Below the pieces are notes generated by a model that saw only the letters and a program-made list of their open reading frames with translations, was not told where the DNA came from and ran no database searches. A DNA stretch of 64,000 bases from an uncultured Saprospiraceae bacterium. GTDB taxonomy: Bacteria > Bacteroidota > Bacteroidia > Chitinophagales > Saprospiraceae. Positions 31,877-40,247 of this stretch are shown one piece after another; the stretch's first letter is position 1, and every line of letters begins with the position of its first letter. Where the stretch lies: assembly GCA_937980645.1 (NCBI GenBank), contig CALJPQ010000022.1, positions 62,001 to 126,000 of the forward strand, in the 5' to 3' direction. Both the position numbers and the translations under genes were made by a program.

Positions 31877-34165
31877 TCACCATTTCACAAAGGAAGCCTG
31901 TTCGCGGCGTTCGCCGTCGGGTGTGTGCAGGTGGAGGTGATACAGGCCAGGTGCCCAATCGGAGACTGGGATGAACTGTGGTGCATTGGCGGCGGTGCTT
32001 CCTTGAGCTGCTAAGCGGCCCAGGGCATCGCGGATGGACCACTGGAAGGGCTGGCCGATGGGCCACTCGAGGCGCAGGCTGTGGCGCGCGGGGTTGGGCC
32101 ACAGGGCAACGGCGGGTGTGGCAGCGGGTGTGGGTGTCTGTGTGCTGACGGTACAGTCCTTCAGCTCGGTGCGAAAGATGGACAGGCCACCGCGCAGGTT
32201 GCCAACGACGACTTCCAGCCTTCCGTCGCCGTCTAAGTCGCCGAAGGCGGGAGAGGAGCGTTCACCTTCGTCCACATTGCCCCAGGTTTTGGAGACGATG
32301 GGAAAGGCGGCGTCGGTGGGGCTGAGGCCGATATAGGCTTCGAGTGTGCCGTCTAAGTTGCCGCAGACCACCCATCGTTCGCCGTTGGGCTGGGTAATGA
32401 CGGCCGGGCGGCTGAAGCCCACGCCGATGGGGGTGCGCGTGTCAATGGCACCCAGACGGCTGATGGTGGGCTGGGTGCCAAAAATGGGGTTGTCGGGCGC
32501 GCCGATGTTTCGGAAATAGGCAATGGAGCCGTTGCGACGGCCCACAACGATGTCCATAGCACCATCCTGGTCCACATCCACGATGAAGGGTGCGCTGAAG
32601 GTGCCGGTGTTCAGGCTGGCCCACATGGGGCGGAAGTCCTGTTGCAGTTGCATGGGCTGGCTTGGCCCAGCGGTATTGAGGAAGCAGTAGAGACCTGAGG
32701 CATTGCTACCGATGAGCAGGTCGAGGTCGCCGTCGTTGTCTAAGTCGCCAAAGGCGGGGGCATAGTCGCTGCTGATGTTGGCGTAGGCCGAGAGGCCCAG
32801 CCAGTCGCTGTTCGTCAGTTCGAAGCGGGGCGCTGTGGGCGTGCCGGTATTGAGCCACAGGTAGAGTGTGGCCGTTCCGATGGGGCTGGTGGTGTAAAAG
32901 CCGGCGTTGCCCACGACGATGTCGAGCAGGCCGTCGCCGTTCACATCGGCGATAGCCGGATGGGTGGCGCTGCCCACGTCAATCATGTCGCCGACTAAGA
33001 AGCGGCGGTTTTCCAGTTCAAAGTAGTGGCCTACGGTGGCCGTGTTTTCGTAAAGCCACACATTGTTGCGATCTTCACCGCCATAGCGGGTGTTGGGGGC
33101 GACGATCATATCGCCTTTACCGTCGTTATTGACATCTACGTAGTAAGCGCCCGGGAATTGCGGCAGGTCCACCGGCGTGCTATACGAGGGAAATGTGGCG
33201 TCCTGTTCGGCCATCCAGGCCTGTTGAGGGGTGCCGTAATTGATCATTTGGTTGAGGCAGCGGAAGGAGACGTCGCCGCTGACCATTTCCAGGTCGCCGT
33301 CGCCGTCGTCGTCGTAGAGCATGAGGGTAGAGCCGGGGTGTCGCTGTTTTTTGCGCGCATCGGCGGGGTCGCTGGCGAAAAAGTCCACGCACGTATCGGG
33401 GCGCGGGCTGAGGTTGTTCTGACAGCCGTTCAGGCCAGTTTCGAAGAAGCGGCCCCAGCAGCGGTCTTCTACCACAAAATGGAGGCTATCGCGGCCAAAG
33501 CCTTTTTCTACGGAGGTGTTTTTGACCCACCACACGTGGCCGCCGACAACGCCCTCGAAGGTCAGGATGTCTAAATCGCCGTCGCCGTCCACGTCGGCGA
33601 TGCCGGGCACGTCCGTTTGGGCAATGACTAAATTGAGCCACGCGCCCGGGATGACAGAGGGGTAGTAGATCAGCGCATTGTTGCAGTTGGAACAACCCGG
33701 ATAATGGAAGATAAAGGGTCTGAATTTGAGCGTGTTGTTTTCAAAATAGCCCTGAAAGACCTGCATTTCCTGCGATCCCGGAGCTAGCGCGTAGCAAAAG
33801 ATGTCGGCGGCGCCGTCGCCGTTGAAGTCGCGCAGCACGGCGTACTCGCGCAGGCGCGGGAGGTGGCAGGCGTATTCCGGAGCGTACCGGTAGCTGATGG
33901 TGTTGGGTTTGCCTTCGTTGAGGAAGGTCAGGAAGACGTCGCCAGCCCGGTCGAAGATGACCAGGTCGAGTATGCCGTCCTTGTTAAGGTCGGCAGCGTT
34001 GAACTGTGGAGCATTGAGCCCACCCGCAAAAGCGTATGGCAAAAGGCGCCCGCCCTGCACAGCGGGAAAGTTGAGCGCGGGGAACTGCTGTTGGCTGAGG
34101 AGGTTGCCCGACAGGAGCAGTGCCGCGGCCCAATTGCAGAGAGCAAGAAACCGATATTTCATCAT
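31877..34165 (-). CDS. FG-GAP/VCBS repeat protein with T9SS type A sorting domain
   Basis: 762 residues. After a signal peptide (about 1-25), repeated FG-GAP units carry Ca-binding D-x-D/N-x-D-G loops (DLNKDGILD, DVDGDGDLD, DDDGDGDLE, DVNNDGKGD, DVNGDGLLD, DLDNDGDLD, DVDQDGAMD, DLDGDGRLE), forming a predicted beta-propeller. The C-terminus (ALWPNPARHSLRLEW to YHLHLHTPDGERREQASFVKW) is a T9SS type A sorting domain. It should be a surface or released protein, perhaps for adhesion or ligand binding; no catalytic motif is seen. The promoter TAAGTTTG is 39 bases upstream. Confidence 0.88.
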   Translation of the reverse strand: MMKYRFLALCNWAAALLLSGNLLSQQQFPALNFPAVQGGRLLPYAFAGGLNAPQFNAADLNKDGILDLVIFDRAGDVFLTFLNEGKPNTISYRYAPEYACHLPRLREYAVLRDFNGDGAADIFCYALAPGSQEMQVFQGYFENNTLKFRPFIFHYPGCSNCNNALIYYPSVIPGAWLNLVIAQTDVPGIADVDGDGDLDILTFEGVVGGHVWWVKNTSVEKGFGRDSLHFVVEDRCWGRFFETGLNGCQNNLSPRPDTCVDFFASDPADARKKQRHPGSTLMLYDDDGDGDLEMVSGDVSFRCLNQMINYGTPQQAWMAEQDATFPSYSTPVDLPQFPGAYYVDVNNDGKGDMIVAPNTRYGGEDRNNVWLYENTATVGHYFELENRRFLVGDMIDVGSATHPAIADVNGDGLLDIVVGNAGFYTTSPIGTATLYLWLNTGTPTAPRFELTNSDWLGLSAYANISSDYAPAFGDLDNDGDLDLLIGSNASGLYCFLNTAGPSQPMQLQQDFRPMWASLNTGTFSAPFIVDVDQDGAMDIVVGRRNGSIAYFRNIGAPDNPIFGTQPTISRLGAIDTRTPIGVGFSRPAVITQPNGERWVVCGNLDGTLEAYIGLSPTDAAFPIVSKTWGNVDEGERSSPAFGDLDGDGRLEVVVGNLRGGLSIFRTELKDCTVSTQTPTPAATPAVALWPNPARHSLRLEWPIGQPFQWSIRDALGRLAAQGSTAANAPQFIPVSDWAPGLYHLHLHTPDGERREQASFVKW

Positions 34166-36207: not shown

Positions 36208-36771
36208 ATGTCTTCGCAAGATATTCTCATCGAGCGGCTCAAGCAACGAGACGCCAACGCCTTGAATGCATTGTACGATGCGTACAGCGGCGCCTTGTAC
36301 GGGGTGGTGTTGCGCATTGTGCGTACGCCGGAGCTGGCTGAGCAGGTGCTGCAAGACGTTTTCTTGAAAGCATGGCGTAATATTGAGCACTACGACCCGG
36401 CCAAAGGGCGGTTGTTCACGTGGTTGGTCAATATCGCGCGGAATGCGGCCATTGACACCGTGCGTTCGGCTCAGTATCGGCAGCAGCAGAAAACCGACGC
36501 TCTGGATGCACTCGTACATAATCCCGGTATTCAAGGTATCAATCCGGAACACATCGGTGTTCGGGAATTGGTGGCCCAGTTGGAAGAAAAGCATCGTGTA
36601 CTCATTGAGCTGCTTTACTTCCAGGGCTACACCCAGGAGGAGGCTGCTGAGGCGGTCGGTATTCCGTTGGGTACGGTGAAGACACGCGTGCGCCAGGCCC
36701 TTCGCGAGTTGCGGCGTGCGTTTGGCGAGCACGTATCGGCGCTACTGCTGCTGACTTTGTGGGTACCCTAA
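36208..36771 (+). CDS. ECF sigma factor (sigma-70 family, group 4)
   Basis: 187 residues from the ATG at 36208. Sigma region 2 (LIERLKQRDANALNALYDAYS to FTWLVNIARNAAIDTVRS) is joined by a short linker to region 4 (EEKHRVLIELLYFQGYTQEEAAEAVGIP, then TVKTRVRQALRELR). It is followed 41 bases later by an RskA-like anti-sigma gene on the same strand, the typical partner arrangement. Its similarity to the SigK branch is suggested by the partner type and by the fasciclin gene downstream. The regulon cannot be read from this sequence alone. Confidence 0.93.
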   Translation: MSSQDILIERLKQRDANALNALYDAYSGALYGVVLRIVRTPELAEQVLQDVFLKAWRNIEHYDPAKGRLFTWLVNIARNAAIDTVRSAQYRQQQKTDALDALVHNPGIQGINPEHIGVRELVAQLEEKHRVLIELLYFQGYTQEEAAEAVGIPLGTVKTRVRQALRELRRAFGEHVSALLLLTLWVP

Positions 36772-36812
36772 GCGCTCAAGGAAGACGCAAAAAGTGGATT
36801 AGTTAGCACATC

Positions 36813-37586
36813 ATGGATGTCAAATCCTTCATAGAATCCGGCCTTTTAGAGGTTTATGCCCTGGGTCAATGTACGCCTGAGGAGCGTGCTTTAGTGGAAC
36901 GCATGCTCGAGCAGCACCCTGCGCTTCGAACCGAGCTGGAGGCAGTAGAGCGAGCGCTGGAGCAGGTGGCTCAGGCATATGCGGTATCGCCGCCGCCCGG
37001 GCTGAAGGTGCGTATCCTGGAGCAGGCGCAGGCCGAAGCACCGACGGCTGGCCCATCCGAACGAGGTAGGGCTGGGCATTTCTGGCGCCTGGTGCTCACT
37101 TGGCTCGCAGTGGTCGCGTTAGCTGTTGCACTGGGCTGGCAACTATGGCAGAAAACGCGCCTTTCCGAACGGGTGATCGCCTTAGAGCAACAAGCAGCCG
37201 ATTGTGAAAAGCGCATCCAGCAGCAGGCGCGTCTGCAAGAAGTGGTAGCCCTGCTACGCCACCGCGATACGCGCGCCATTGTCCTGAGCGATGCGGCCGG
37301 CAATGGCTCAGCCAAAATAACCGCCACTGTGTGGCATAACCCGGTGCGCGGCGAAACCGTGCTCGATATCAATACCTTGCCCGCGCCGCCGCCGGGCCGA
37401 TACTTCCAATTCTGGGCCATCGTCGAGGGCAAACCCGTCAGTATGGGCATGGTCAACTTGCGCGGCGACGACGCCTTTCAGACGCTTCCTTTTCACCCTG
37501 AAGCACAGGCCTTTGCCATTTCGGCCGAAGACAATCCCAACGGAAACCCTGCCCCCACGCAGGTGGTGTTAGTGGGTAAAATATAG
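36813..37586 (+). CDS. RskA-like anti-sigma factor, membrane-bound
   Basis: 257 residues. The cytoplasmic N-terminus (about 1-75) starts MDVKSFIESGLLEVYALGQCTPEERALVERML, as in Bacteroidota anti-sigma factors that lack a zinc HxxxCxxC motif. A single transmembrane helix is at about 91-111, followed by a short coiled stretch and an extracytoplasmic RskA C-terminal domain (about 150-257, ending PTQVVLVGKI). It should hold the adjacent ECF sigma inactive until cleaved or released by an envelope signal. Its last 18 bases overlap the convergent gene at 37569. Confidence 0.9.
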   Translation: MDVKSFIESGLLEVYALGQCTPEERALVERMLEQHPALRTELEAVERALEQVAQAYAVSPPPGLKVRILEQAQAEAPTAGPSERGRAGHFWRLVLTWLAVVALAVALGWQLWQKTRLSERVIALEQQAADCEKRIQQQARLQEVVALLRHRDTRAIVLSDAAGNGSAKITATVWHNPVRGETVLDINTLPAPPPGRYFQFWAIVEGKPVSMGMVNLRGDDAFQTLPFHPEAQAFAISAEDNPNGNPAPTQVVLVGKI

Positions 37587-38087
37587 CCCTGCATATTCGC
37601 AACGCAGGCGTATGTGCACAGACCGAAACTGCACGCGCCCGCCAATGCGGCCTACGTCGTCGCCAAACGTATCGGTAACGATGTAGGCGCGGCGAATAAG
37701 CCCACGCCCGGCATACCAGCGCGGCCCACGTGCACCAATGTTCGGGCCGCTGACGATACCACTGCTCGGGTCGGCTTCCTGAGCACACCAGTGGTAATCG
37801 CTCGCAAAGGGCAACGCCACACGGCGCCGAACGTGCCCGACAATGATGCTGGAGTCGTTCGCTTTTTCGTGAAAAGCAATATAGCCATTGAGTGTAATGC
37901 TATCACCGTCCAGCATTACCCGGAATGTGCAATACCAATCCCCCATGCCATAAATGTCGGCGTCGCCACGCAATACACGGTCGGCTGTAATGGACACATC
38001 GGGTAGCTGTACCGTCAGCACGGGTTGGGCATGCAGTAGCGAAGTGGATAAAAGCAGTGTGAAAAACGGAAAACGAAAGATGACCAT
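37569..38087 (-). CDS. Secreted protein of unknown function
   Basis: 172 residues from the ATG at 38087. A signal peptide (MVIFRFPFFTLLLSTSLLHAQ) is followed by a beta-rich sequence with several Cys (WYCTF, WCAQE, LRCEY) and many Arg, Asp and Gly. No family is recognised. It is convergent with, and overlaps by 18 bases, the anti-sigma gene, and is divergent from the barrel gene at 38350, with which it may share an operator region. Confidence 0.6.
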   Translation of the reverse strand: MVIFRFPFFTLLLSTSLLHAQPVLTVQLPDVSITADRVLRGDADIYGMGDWYCTFRVMLDGDSITLNGYIAFHEKANDSSIIVGHVRRRVALPFASDYHWCAQEADPSSGIVSGPNIGARGPRWYAGRGLIRRAYIVTDTFGDDVGRIGGRVQFRSVHIRLRCEYAGLYFTH

Positions 38088-38197
38088 AGTGCACGTGATT
38101 CGGAAGGCCGCGTTCCGTAGGGATGCCTGTCGGGCGGCTTTCACAGAAAATATCACGTATTTACGGGTATAACACTAACCAGGTTTTTTGGAGAAAT

Positions 38198-38212
38198 TAT
38201 TCATCATGAATA
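38198..38212. promoter_or_regulatory. 15-base palindrome, possible operator
   Basis: TATTCAT-C-ATGAATA is a perfect inverted repeat with 7-base arms in the 262-base divergent gap between the secreted-protein gene and the barrel gene. It could bind a dimeric regulator. Confidence 0.35.
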
Positions 38213-38298
38213 GTAACACGTTTAGATGTTTGGCTGATTTTCTGAATTTTTTTTGACAAGATAAAACCGATATTGCGCTGGTGCTCGTAGATGGATGC

Positions 38299-38312
38299 TG
38301 TAAGGCCTTACA
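38299..38312. promoter_or_regulatory. 14-base perfect palindrome upstream of the barrel gene
   Basis: TGTAAGGCCTTACA is perfectly self-complementary and ends 37 bases before the ATG at 38350. Position and symmetry fit a repressor or activator site. Confidence 0.4.
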
Positions 38313-38349
38313 CCGCAAACCATCACCGTTTTTTAAAACAGCATCTGTT

Positions 38350-39228
38350 ATGCGAACCCATCTTATCCTTACTGCAATGCTGCTGGGCGCTGTGGCGTTC
38401 ACGGCATCGGCACAAAGTATCGTCAACGGCTTTTTTAGCGGCAAGGGCCACGGGGCTGTGGCGCTGTCGTATTCCGCCGAGCACTACGACAATGTTTTTC
38501 TGGTACCTAACGAAGTGAAGGGTGTTCCCATCTTTCGTGAGGTGAGTGTCAACAGCGTATCTGTGTTTGCGACCTATGGCGTTACGGATCGCCTGGAGGC
38601 TTCTTTGACCTTACCCTACATCACGGCCAGGGGCAATGCTGACCCTGCAGTGTTGGAAGGTTTGGGTTTCGAGAATGAGCGCAAGGGCCTGCAAGACCTT
38701 TCGCTGGCGCTCAAGTATCTCGCTTATCGCCTGAATGTGGGCGCTGGCAGGCTCGATGTAGCGGTGTCAGCGGGTCTGCGCACGCCGGTGGGCAATTATC
38801 GCGTGGACGAAGGGCTTCAGAGCATTCTGGCCATTGGCAACCGCGCTACGGCGGTTACGAGTTTGGCATTGTTACACTGGCAATCGGCCATGGGGCTCTT
38901 CGTTACGGCCCAGGGCGGTTATAGCGTGCGCAGCGGTGAAGTGCCTGACGCCTGGGTAGGCGAGCTGAAGGCCGGTTATGCGCATCGGGCGTTCTACGTG
39001 GACGTGTGGTATGCTGGCCAGCGCTCTACTGGAGGCGTCAACATCCTGGGCGAGGGCTTTACAGGCTTCTTTCCGGCCACGGACGTAACGTTTACGCGCG
39101 CTGGCCTGAGCGCTTTTGTGCCCGTTGTGGGCGGCTTAGGCCTTTCGGGCGGTGTCAGTAAGTACCTGACGGGCCGCAATGTTGGAGAGGCCACAGGCTT
39201 CTACGGCGGAGTCGTTTACAACTTCTAA
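38350..39228 (+). CDS. Outer-membrane beta-barrel (transporter-like)
   Basis: 292 residues from the ATG at 38350. A signal peptide (MRTHLILTAMLLGAVAFTASAQ) is followed by many amphipathic strands (GHGAVALSYSAEHYDNVFLV, VNSVSVFATYGVTDRLEASLTLPYI, LDVAVSAGLRTPVGNYRV, GLFVTAQGGYSVRSG, AFYVDVWYAGQRS) and an aromatic C-terminus (GFYGGVVYNF). The length and the GVTDRLEASLTLPYI block resemble the phenol-degradation meta-pathway type of barrel. It lies 32 bases upstream of a fasciclin lipoprotein on the same strand, so the two form an operon, and downstream of a sigma/anti-sigma pair. Confidence 0.78.
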   Translation: MRTHLILTAMLLGAVAFTASAQSIVNGFFSGKGHGAVALSYSAEHYDNVFLVPNEVKGVPIFREVSVNSVSVFATYGVTDRLEASLTLPYITARGNADPAVLEGLGFENERKGLQDLSLALKYLAYRLNVGAGRLDVAVSAGLRTPVGNYRVDEGLQSILAIGNRATAVTSLALLHWQSAMGLFVTAQGGYSVRSGEVPDAWVGELKAGYAHRAFYVDVWYAGQRSTGGVNILGEGFTGFFPATDVTFTRAGLSAFVPVVGGLGLSGGVSKYLTGRNVGEATGFYGGVVYNF

Positions 39229-39260
39229 CCCATTTTTTTTATCAAAAAAACACTCTTATC

Positions 39261-40247
39261 ATGTTATCTGTAAAAAAATACCTGTTGCTGTCGGGCCTTA
39301 TTGCGGCTTTATGGAGCCTGCCGGCCTGCCAAAAAGAGGAGGCGCCGCTGCCAAGCATTGCTGCTATTGCCGTAACCAATCCTGACTTTAGTACCCTGGA
39401 GGATGCCGCCGTGTTGGGTGGGGTGGCGGCTGTGCTGTCTAACCCTAACCCAAACGACCCACAAGGTGCCTACACAGTGTTTGCACCCAATAATGCCGCT
39501 TTTGCTCGCCTGGGCCTTAATAGCGGGGCCGACCTGCGCGTGTTGCAGCCGGCGTTTCTGACCAGCACCCTGCTCTACCACGTGTCGGGCGGCAACCTGC
39601 GCGGCGACCGCCTGACGAATGGGGCCTCTTCCGCTTCAGCGCTCGGACCGACACGCCGTGTCGTCGTGCGCGGCAGCGACCGCTATCTAAACGGCTCTAA
39701 AATACTGGCCACCGATGTGGCAGCATCTAATGGCACCGTGCACGTCATTGATAAGGTGCTGCTGGCTACCGGAGCCGACATCGTGCAATCAGCCTTAGCC
39801 TTGCGCGATGCCAAAGTGTTCGTTGGGCCGGAGTTATCGTTCTTAGTGGAGGCTGTACTCTATGCCGAACTGGCTGATGCGCTGACGGCAAAGCCCGGTA
39901 GCCCGTCGTTCACGGTCTTTGCACCCACTGACGCGGCATTCAGACAACTGGGCCAAGACCTGGGCGTGCCGCTCAAGGTGCCTGCCGACATCCGCAAGTT
40001 GCCCAAAGACGTGGTAACCAACGTGCTGCTCAATCACGTAGTAGCTGATGGCGGCAAATTCAACCCGGAAATGAATGCCGGCTCGATAATGCCACTGGGC
40101 GGCACACCGCTGACGATAGGCGCCTTTGCCAATGGCGTTGTAACCGTGCGCGGCAAGGGCAACGATGCAGCAGCAAACATGGTCATCCCGGATGTGCAAA
40201 CAACCAACGGAGTGGTGCATGTGATTGATAGAGTGCTGTTGCCTTGA
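39261..40247 (+). CDS. Lipoprotein with two fasciclin (FAS1) domains
   Basis: 328 residues. Lipobox SLPAC gives a lipidated Cys23. Two FAS1 domains follow, about 36-177 and 180-328, each with the H1 box (TVFAPNNAAFARLG; TVFAPTDAAFRQLG) and H2 end (NGTVHVIDKVLL; NGVVHVIDRVLL). FAS1 proteins mediate adhesion or bind small ligands; the mycobacterial relatives MPT70 and MPT83 are controlled by SigK and RskA. The gene is second in an operon with the barrel at 38350 and ends with a strong terminator. Confidence 0.93.
   Translation: MLSVKKYLLLSGLIAALWSLPACQKEEAPLPSIAAIAVTNPDFSTLEDAAVLGGVAAVLSNPNPNDPQGAYTVFAPNNAAFARLGLNSGADLRVLQPAFLTSTLLYHVSGGNLRGDRLTNGASSASALGPTRRVVVRGSDRYLNGSKILATDVAASNGTVHVIDKVLLATGADIVQSALALRDAKVFVGPELSFLVEAVLYAELADALTAKPGSPSFTVFAPTDAAFRQLGQDLGVPLKVPADIRKLPKDVVTNVLLNHVVADGGKFNPEMNAGSIMPLGGTPLTIGAFANGVVTVRGKGNDAAANMVIPDVQTTNGVVHVIDRVLLP

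Follow-up and report, generated by a model that had tools for sequence, protein, structure and literature searches.

A SigK-like sigma factor and its RskA-type anti-sigma factor beside a barrel-FAS1 operon, a probable part of their regulon, in an uncultured Saprospiraceae bacterium

In the mycobacterial SigK-RskA systems, which belong to the extracytoplasmic function (ECF) sigma factor groups ECF18/19, mpt83, dipZ, and mpt70 make up a triad in which every gene is preceded by its own SigK-dependent promoter (PMC9861118; here and below, citations refer to passages of the papers named). An mpt83-sigK-rskA cassette that reaches Gram-negative bacteria has been reported, citing Veyrier 2008; that of Yersinia carries a SigK site, and even for M. 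tuberculosis the activating signal of SigK-RskA has yet to be identified (PMC7509140). Here, we analyzed 64,000 nucleotides of DNA (the window) from an uncultured Saprospiraceae bacterium (contig CALJPQ010000022.1, assembly GCA_937980645.1; genome of 3.94 Mb), in which genes for an ECF sigma factor and an RskA-type anti-sigma factor lie beside those for an outer-membrane barrel and a two-domain FAS1 (fasciclin) lipoprotein, together with one secreted gene on the opposite strand. All of these components, which a previous sequence-only reading had named, were confirmed, and all features of the locus are present at the coordinates in Table 1. We consider it probable that a SigK/RskA-type envelope-stress switch now stands beside part of its own regulon in the window lineage; the most economical account is that the SigK-type switch governs a regulon to which the barrel-FAS1 operon belongs and, in the window lineage, the divergent secreted gene as well. 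Whereas the SigK-RskA-FAS1 cassette is already known, Yersinia included (PMC7509140), the Bacteroidota variant with a barrel-FAS1 operon is new: no report of such an operon was found in the literature searched, from which most subscription journals are missing, nor any paper on fasciclin with an ECF sigma factor and anti-sigma factor in Bacteroidetes, nor any on fasciclin in Saprospiraceae, nor any that brings together at least three of CHRD domain, fasciclin, sigma factor, and DUF4331.

The sigma factor exceeded the cut-offs of both Sigma70_r2 (66 bits) and Sigma70_r4 (49 bits), the SigK model PRK09646 (NCBIfam) was the best of 102 families matched, and the closest PDB sequence was M. tuberculosis SigK (4nqw; E = 1.5e-23). 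However, its PRK09646 score of 137.6 bits fails the curated SigK cut-off (226 bits required), and the SigK cysteine pair (positions 133 and 183) is missing, there being no cysteine anywhere in the protein. Because these two SigK features fail, we name it SigK-like rather than SigK. The cysteine pair is found in 94% of ECF18 and in just 56% of ECF19 members (PMC7509140), so its absence does not exclude ECF19. The anti-sigma factor matched RskA_C (67 bits; cut-off 29.4) and the NCBIfam 'anti-sigma factor' model NF052375 (115.9 bits; cut-off 100), and has a single transmembrane helix at about residues 88 to 110, as read by eye. Its gene begins 41 bases 3' of the sigma gene, which is the arrangement that characterizes SigK-RskA systems, namely an adjacent membrane protein with RskA_C, and it is the single RskA_C gene of the host genome. 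The locus resembles mycobacterial SigK-RskA in its sigma factor, in the RskA_C anti-sigma factor downstream, and in its FAS1 neighbor, and differs from it in the lack of cysteines and in the partner, which is an outer-membrane barrel rather than DipZ.

For the barrel, ATG 38350 is the best start, which corrects an earlier call, and the protein matched no Pfam family. Its AlphaFold model (predicted local distance difference test score [pLDDT] 75.9, predicted template-modelling score [pTM] 0.76) has about 12 long strands, and the top Foldseek matches of this medium-confidence model were outer-membrane channels (TM-score 0.63 to 0.66, E ~1e-8). The nearest folds were those of the COG4313 channel (4rl8) and FapF (5o65), which appear alike in barrel fold (TM-score ~0.65) while sharing only 16 to 17% and 10% sequence identity, respectively, with the window barrel. 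The FAS1 protein matched PF02469 with 148 bits over two domains, and its AlphaFold model (pLDDT 79.6) matched human TGFBIp best, with fasciclin I, MPT70, and the carotenoid-binding AstaP also among the fold matches. Its lipoprotein cysteine, C23, is invariant in 18/18 orthologues and is followed by Q-K-E-E, matching the Bacteroidetes surface-export signal C-X-K-(D/E)2, of which the K is missing in several orthologues; the X-K-(D/E)2 signal after Cys was defined in C. canimorsus (PMC5080379). On the strength of this signal, the lipoprotein is probably displayed on the cell surface and, unlike mycobacterial MPT70/MPT83, it combines two domains with a surface-export signal.

A scan of named genomes placed the relatives in Saprospiraceae and other Bacteroidota, in agreement with the 'distant phylum' of the sequence-only reading. 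The scan yielded 18 barrel relatives (48 to 63% identity) in Saprospiraceae, Chitinophagaceae, Flavobacteriaceae, Pedobacter, and others, all of them adjoined by a two-domain FAS1 gene (divergent in Pedobacter). Likewise, a sample of 395 genomes of the phylum gave six more orthologues with scores >340 bits, and in all six FAS1 adjoined the barrel (divergent in two). Barrel and two-domain FAS1 gene are thus a conserved unit, adjacent in 24/24 orthologous loci across Bacteroidota; around lower-scoring barrel paralogues (≤206 bits; 23 further loci), no FAS1 gene was found within the fetched flanks. Several of the named loci have flanks that stop at contig ends (e.g., L205, L210, L211, L212, L214, L220, and L221), and L206 and L093, which represent one contig, entered the counts a single time. 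The profile used for counting FAS1 genes here and below kept one wrong-strand seed (L053), the matches used all having E <1e-13. The earlier proposal that the barrel replaces other partners is accordingly recast as a fixed barrel-FAS1 pair that in most cases lies apart from the genes of the regulator.

Support for a link between this pair and the switch comes from a two-block, ECF-type promoter motif. AAWCC-N16-19-CGTA occurs upstream of the barrel in 19/24 loci (shuffle mean 0.18, maximum 3 in 500), at 26 to ~175 bases from the start codon, compared with 0/6 paralogous barrels and 7/~264 other open reading frames (ORFs) of the barrel loci (25/288 counting 18 barrels). A matrix built from ECF/RskA-FAS1 loci and sigma loci, with no barrel upstream regions in its training set, likewise gave p ≤0.01 in 17/24 of those regions. 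With a spacer of 15 to 19 bases, the motif also lies ahead of RskA-linked sigma genes, directly preceding them at about -45, in 18/30 phylum loci (shuffle mean 0.19) and in 7/26 loci of barrel genomes (shuffle mean 0.11), versus 15/393 control ORFs; sigma and FAS1 start codons in these promoter analyses were picked by rule (Met in a length range). When all window positions on both strands were ranked by score, third place went to the barrel site (38263, +) and seventh to the site that faces the opposite-strand gene (38187, -), and stricter patterns of the two sites have four and two matches genome-wide, respectively, one of each in the intergenic region upstream of the barrel. The window FAS1 operon has a promoter-like site of the class seen at RskA-linked sigma genes, a probable further likeness to mycobacterial SigK-RskA, and a promoter of this class ahead of the gene pair suggests that this kind of switch controls the pair across the phylum. 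The top motif score in the window, at 36489 (+) inside the sigma gene, was taken as a coding coincidence because a match at G493:C3:105762 also appears within a sigma gene and over a similar peptide, as judged by eye. For sigma-70-type promoters and for terminators, the region gave about the same numbers as shuffled sequence.

Co-occurrence is also consistent with control by the switch: RskA_C was present in 25/25 operon genomes, the window's included, as compared with 155/395 genomes of the phylum sample, in which all seven operon genomes carry it; where the best barrel scored 140 to 206 bits, RskA was found in 2/7 genomes. In an enlarged anti-sigma tree (built without the duplicates L147 and L166 and the long-branched L190 and L201), the window anti-sigma factor clusters with its counterparts from three operon genomes (G490, G491, and G507; support 99), and the motif lies upstream of two of the three sigma genes beside them (L296 and L299).

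We envisage that the membrane anti-sigma factor would hold the ECF sigma factor until an envelope signal frees it, whereupon the sigma factor would lead RNA polymerase to AAA(A/T)CC-N16-17-CGTA promoters, one ahead of the barrel-FAS1 operon and one facing it ahead of the small secreted gene. The cell would then produce an outer-membrane channel and a two-domain FAS1 lipoprotein, probably surface-displayed. Most relatives have the same gene pair and promoter class elsewhere in the genome, where the pair would be controlled in trans. That the window sigma factor reads the barrel promoter, that the barrel and the FAS1 protein work together, and that the lipoprotein lies at the surface is what we infer from these data.

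At one stage we read the adjacency as pure coincidence, a view that the promoter result reversed. On that account, the sigma-RskA and barrel-FAS1 pairs are unrelated neighbors joined by a lineage-specific rearrangement, with another ECF sigma factor reading the promoter, and several findings speak for it or weigh against our own interpretation. An RskA gene was found in the fetched flanks of 0/24 other barrel-FAS1 loci; among the genomes checked, sigma factor and barrel are adjacent only in that of the window, which also sets the locus apart from mycobacterial SigK-RskA; and in a same-genus genome (G040), radC and kdsD are still adjacent while all four genes are absent at the site, the genome as a whole giving no RskA_C or FAS1 match. 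Conservation of the four-gene neighborhood, the test that the sequence-only reading had set for its proposed target link, thus fails, and synteny gives that link no support; what does support it is the conserved promoter at the barrel operon. Nor does the window's own sigma gene have the motif upstream (highest score 5.2, in 46th place within the window), that is, it lacks an autoregulatory site, so that of the motif shared by sigma and barrel genes for which a search had been suggested, only the barrel side was found here, though RskA-linked sigma genes elsewhere carry it. The window barrel site, scoring 12.8, is weaker than most other barrel sites; in a family sample, the motif seldom faces the sigma gene (0/23 and 2/45); the set of 30 phylum sigma loci consists of the top-scoring RskA matches, of which the majority belong to a single family; and the promoter might be one that other ECF sigma factors recognize. 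Moreover, kinship inflates the co-occurrence, the seven operon genomes of the phylum sample representing four genera, and RskA is found in 84/171 genera. The host's other FAS1 gene (contig C13) has no motif upstream (best score 1.1). Nevertheless, we regard chance adjacency as unlikely, if far from negligible: the barrel promoter is of the class seen ahead of RskA-linked sigma genes and of two of the three nearest sigma orthologues, every operon genome carries RskA, the host with just one such gene, and we estimate that random placement within ~2 kb in a 3.9-Mb genome would occur roughly 1 time in 1000.

Our first hypothesis, a conserved sigma-to-FAS1 locus, was rejected on the grounds of synteny and anti-sigma phylogeny. 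In the form of a four-gene module (sigma factor, anti-sigma factor, barrel, and FAS1) that was lost or scattered elsewhere, it draws on the survey of FAS1 genes near ECF/RskA pairs that the sequence-only reading had called for. In a family sample of 100 genomes, 66 had RskA_C (93 matches listed), and the surroundings of these matches were fetched for 90 loci besides the window. A FAS1 gene adjoined the ECF/RskA pair in 25/90, always divergent, i.e., transcribed away from it. More specifically, these 25 genes encode single-domain secreted proteins, and a tree of 86 anti-sigma factors puts the 25 FAS1-flanked members together in a single group with 42 members (support 96/95). The window anti-sigma factor, however, lies outside this group, beside one without FAS1, a placement that counts against the sequence-only reading; the closest anti-sigma factor in the 100 genomes (L113) has neither barrel nor FAS1 alongside. 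FAS1 is therefore associated with ECF/RskA pairs in the family, but the window pair is of another kind: the divergent cassettes share its regulator family and motif class, and differ in orientation, in their single-domain FAS1 proteins, and in anti-sigma group. As the four genes occur together in no relative examined, such a module is largely refuted and very improbable. The suggestion of an ancient module does have a precedent in the mpt83-sigK-rskA cassette (PMC7509140).

That the AAWCC...CGTA element is instead the operator of a DNA-binding regulator is equally improbable, since its two blocks, spacer of 16 to 17 bases, and distance from the start codon fit an ECF promoter and the same element directly precedes RskA-linked sigma genes.

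In the divergent cassettes, the ATCC...CGTA motif, in relaxed form, was present in 11/25 regions upstream of the FAS1 genes versus 0.17 expected. An intergenic element, AAATCCAA...TCGTA, is common to the single-domain FAS1/ECF-RskA loci (L125, L134, L138, L139, L144, L148, L152, L154, L156, and others among L113 to L202; 25 in all). In ECF/RskA loci without FAS1 (L158, L182, L181, L188, L136, and L132), the motif points to divergent exported genes, which in four loci encode TPR proteins that begin like lipoproteins and in the others a DUF4331 protein and a large protein with CHRD repeats.

Table 1. Features of the sigma/anti-sigma/barrel/FAS1 locus (window coordinates).
Feature	Position	Strand	Remarks
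ECF sigma factor, SigK-like	36208..36771	+	187 amino acids (aa), no cysteine
RskA-type anti-sigma factor	36813..37586	+	N-terminal sigma-binding region, one transmembrane helix, periplasmic RskA_C domain
Secreted 172-aa protein, unknown fold	37569..38087	-	ORF open to GTG 38156
ECF-type promoter-like site facing opposite-strand gene	38158..38187	-	AAAACC...CGTAAATA
ECF-type promoter-like site ahead of barrel gene	38263..38289	+	AAAACCGAT...CTCGTA; ~60 bases 5' of start codon
Predicted 12-strand outer-membrane beta-barrel channel	38350..39228	+	292 aa
Two-domain FAS1 lipoprotein	39261..40247	+	328 aa

For the opposite-strand gene, the likeliest start is 38087 rather than GTG 38156, judging by eye from its signal peptide. 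Its ORF (37569-38156) had no Pfam, NCBIfam, or significant PDB relative, and homologues with 48% identity lie divergent to the barrel in two other loci (L204 and L205).

The gene pair, the promoter motif, and the named carriers (Lewinella, Neolewinella, Aquimarina, Psychroflexus, and Pedobacter) open the FAS1 link to tests in environmental bacteria. They also provide a candidate sigma-promoter pair for a phylum in which an association with class I anti-sigma domains was noted for just 6% of ECFs (PMC7406223). A more speculative and, in our view, doubtful extension is that in a Bacteroidota SigK-type regulon the channel and the surface FAS1 protein might form one complex, perhaps handling a ligand that is hydrophobic or resembles a pigment during photo-oxidative stress, and that an ancient FAS1-RskA link might span Actinobacteria, Proteobacteria, and Bacteroidota. 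For the ligand and the stress there are hints only, namely the AstaP fold match, the light induction of FAS1 genes in M. kansasii (PMC9861118), and a Rhodobacter FAS1 gene that is upregulated under photo-oxidative stress (PMC7074977).

Near the barrel operon of Chitinophagaceae, the motif also lies upstream of 230-aa ORFs (L212:12023 and L215:12021) and 431-aa ORFs (L212:5750, L214:2813, and L215:5752), which are possible extra regulon members. The sole other FAS1 gene of the host genome (G000:C13:22100-22468; L203) is single-domain and has no sigma gene nearby. Elsewhere in the window, at 31877-34165 (-), a gene encodes a 762-aa secreted protein with FG-GAP/EF-hand-like repeats, the tail of which we take to resemble a type IX secretion sorting tail.

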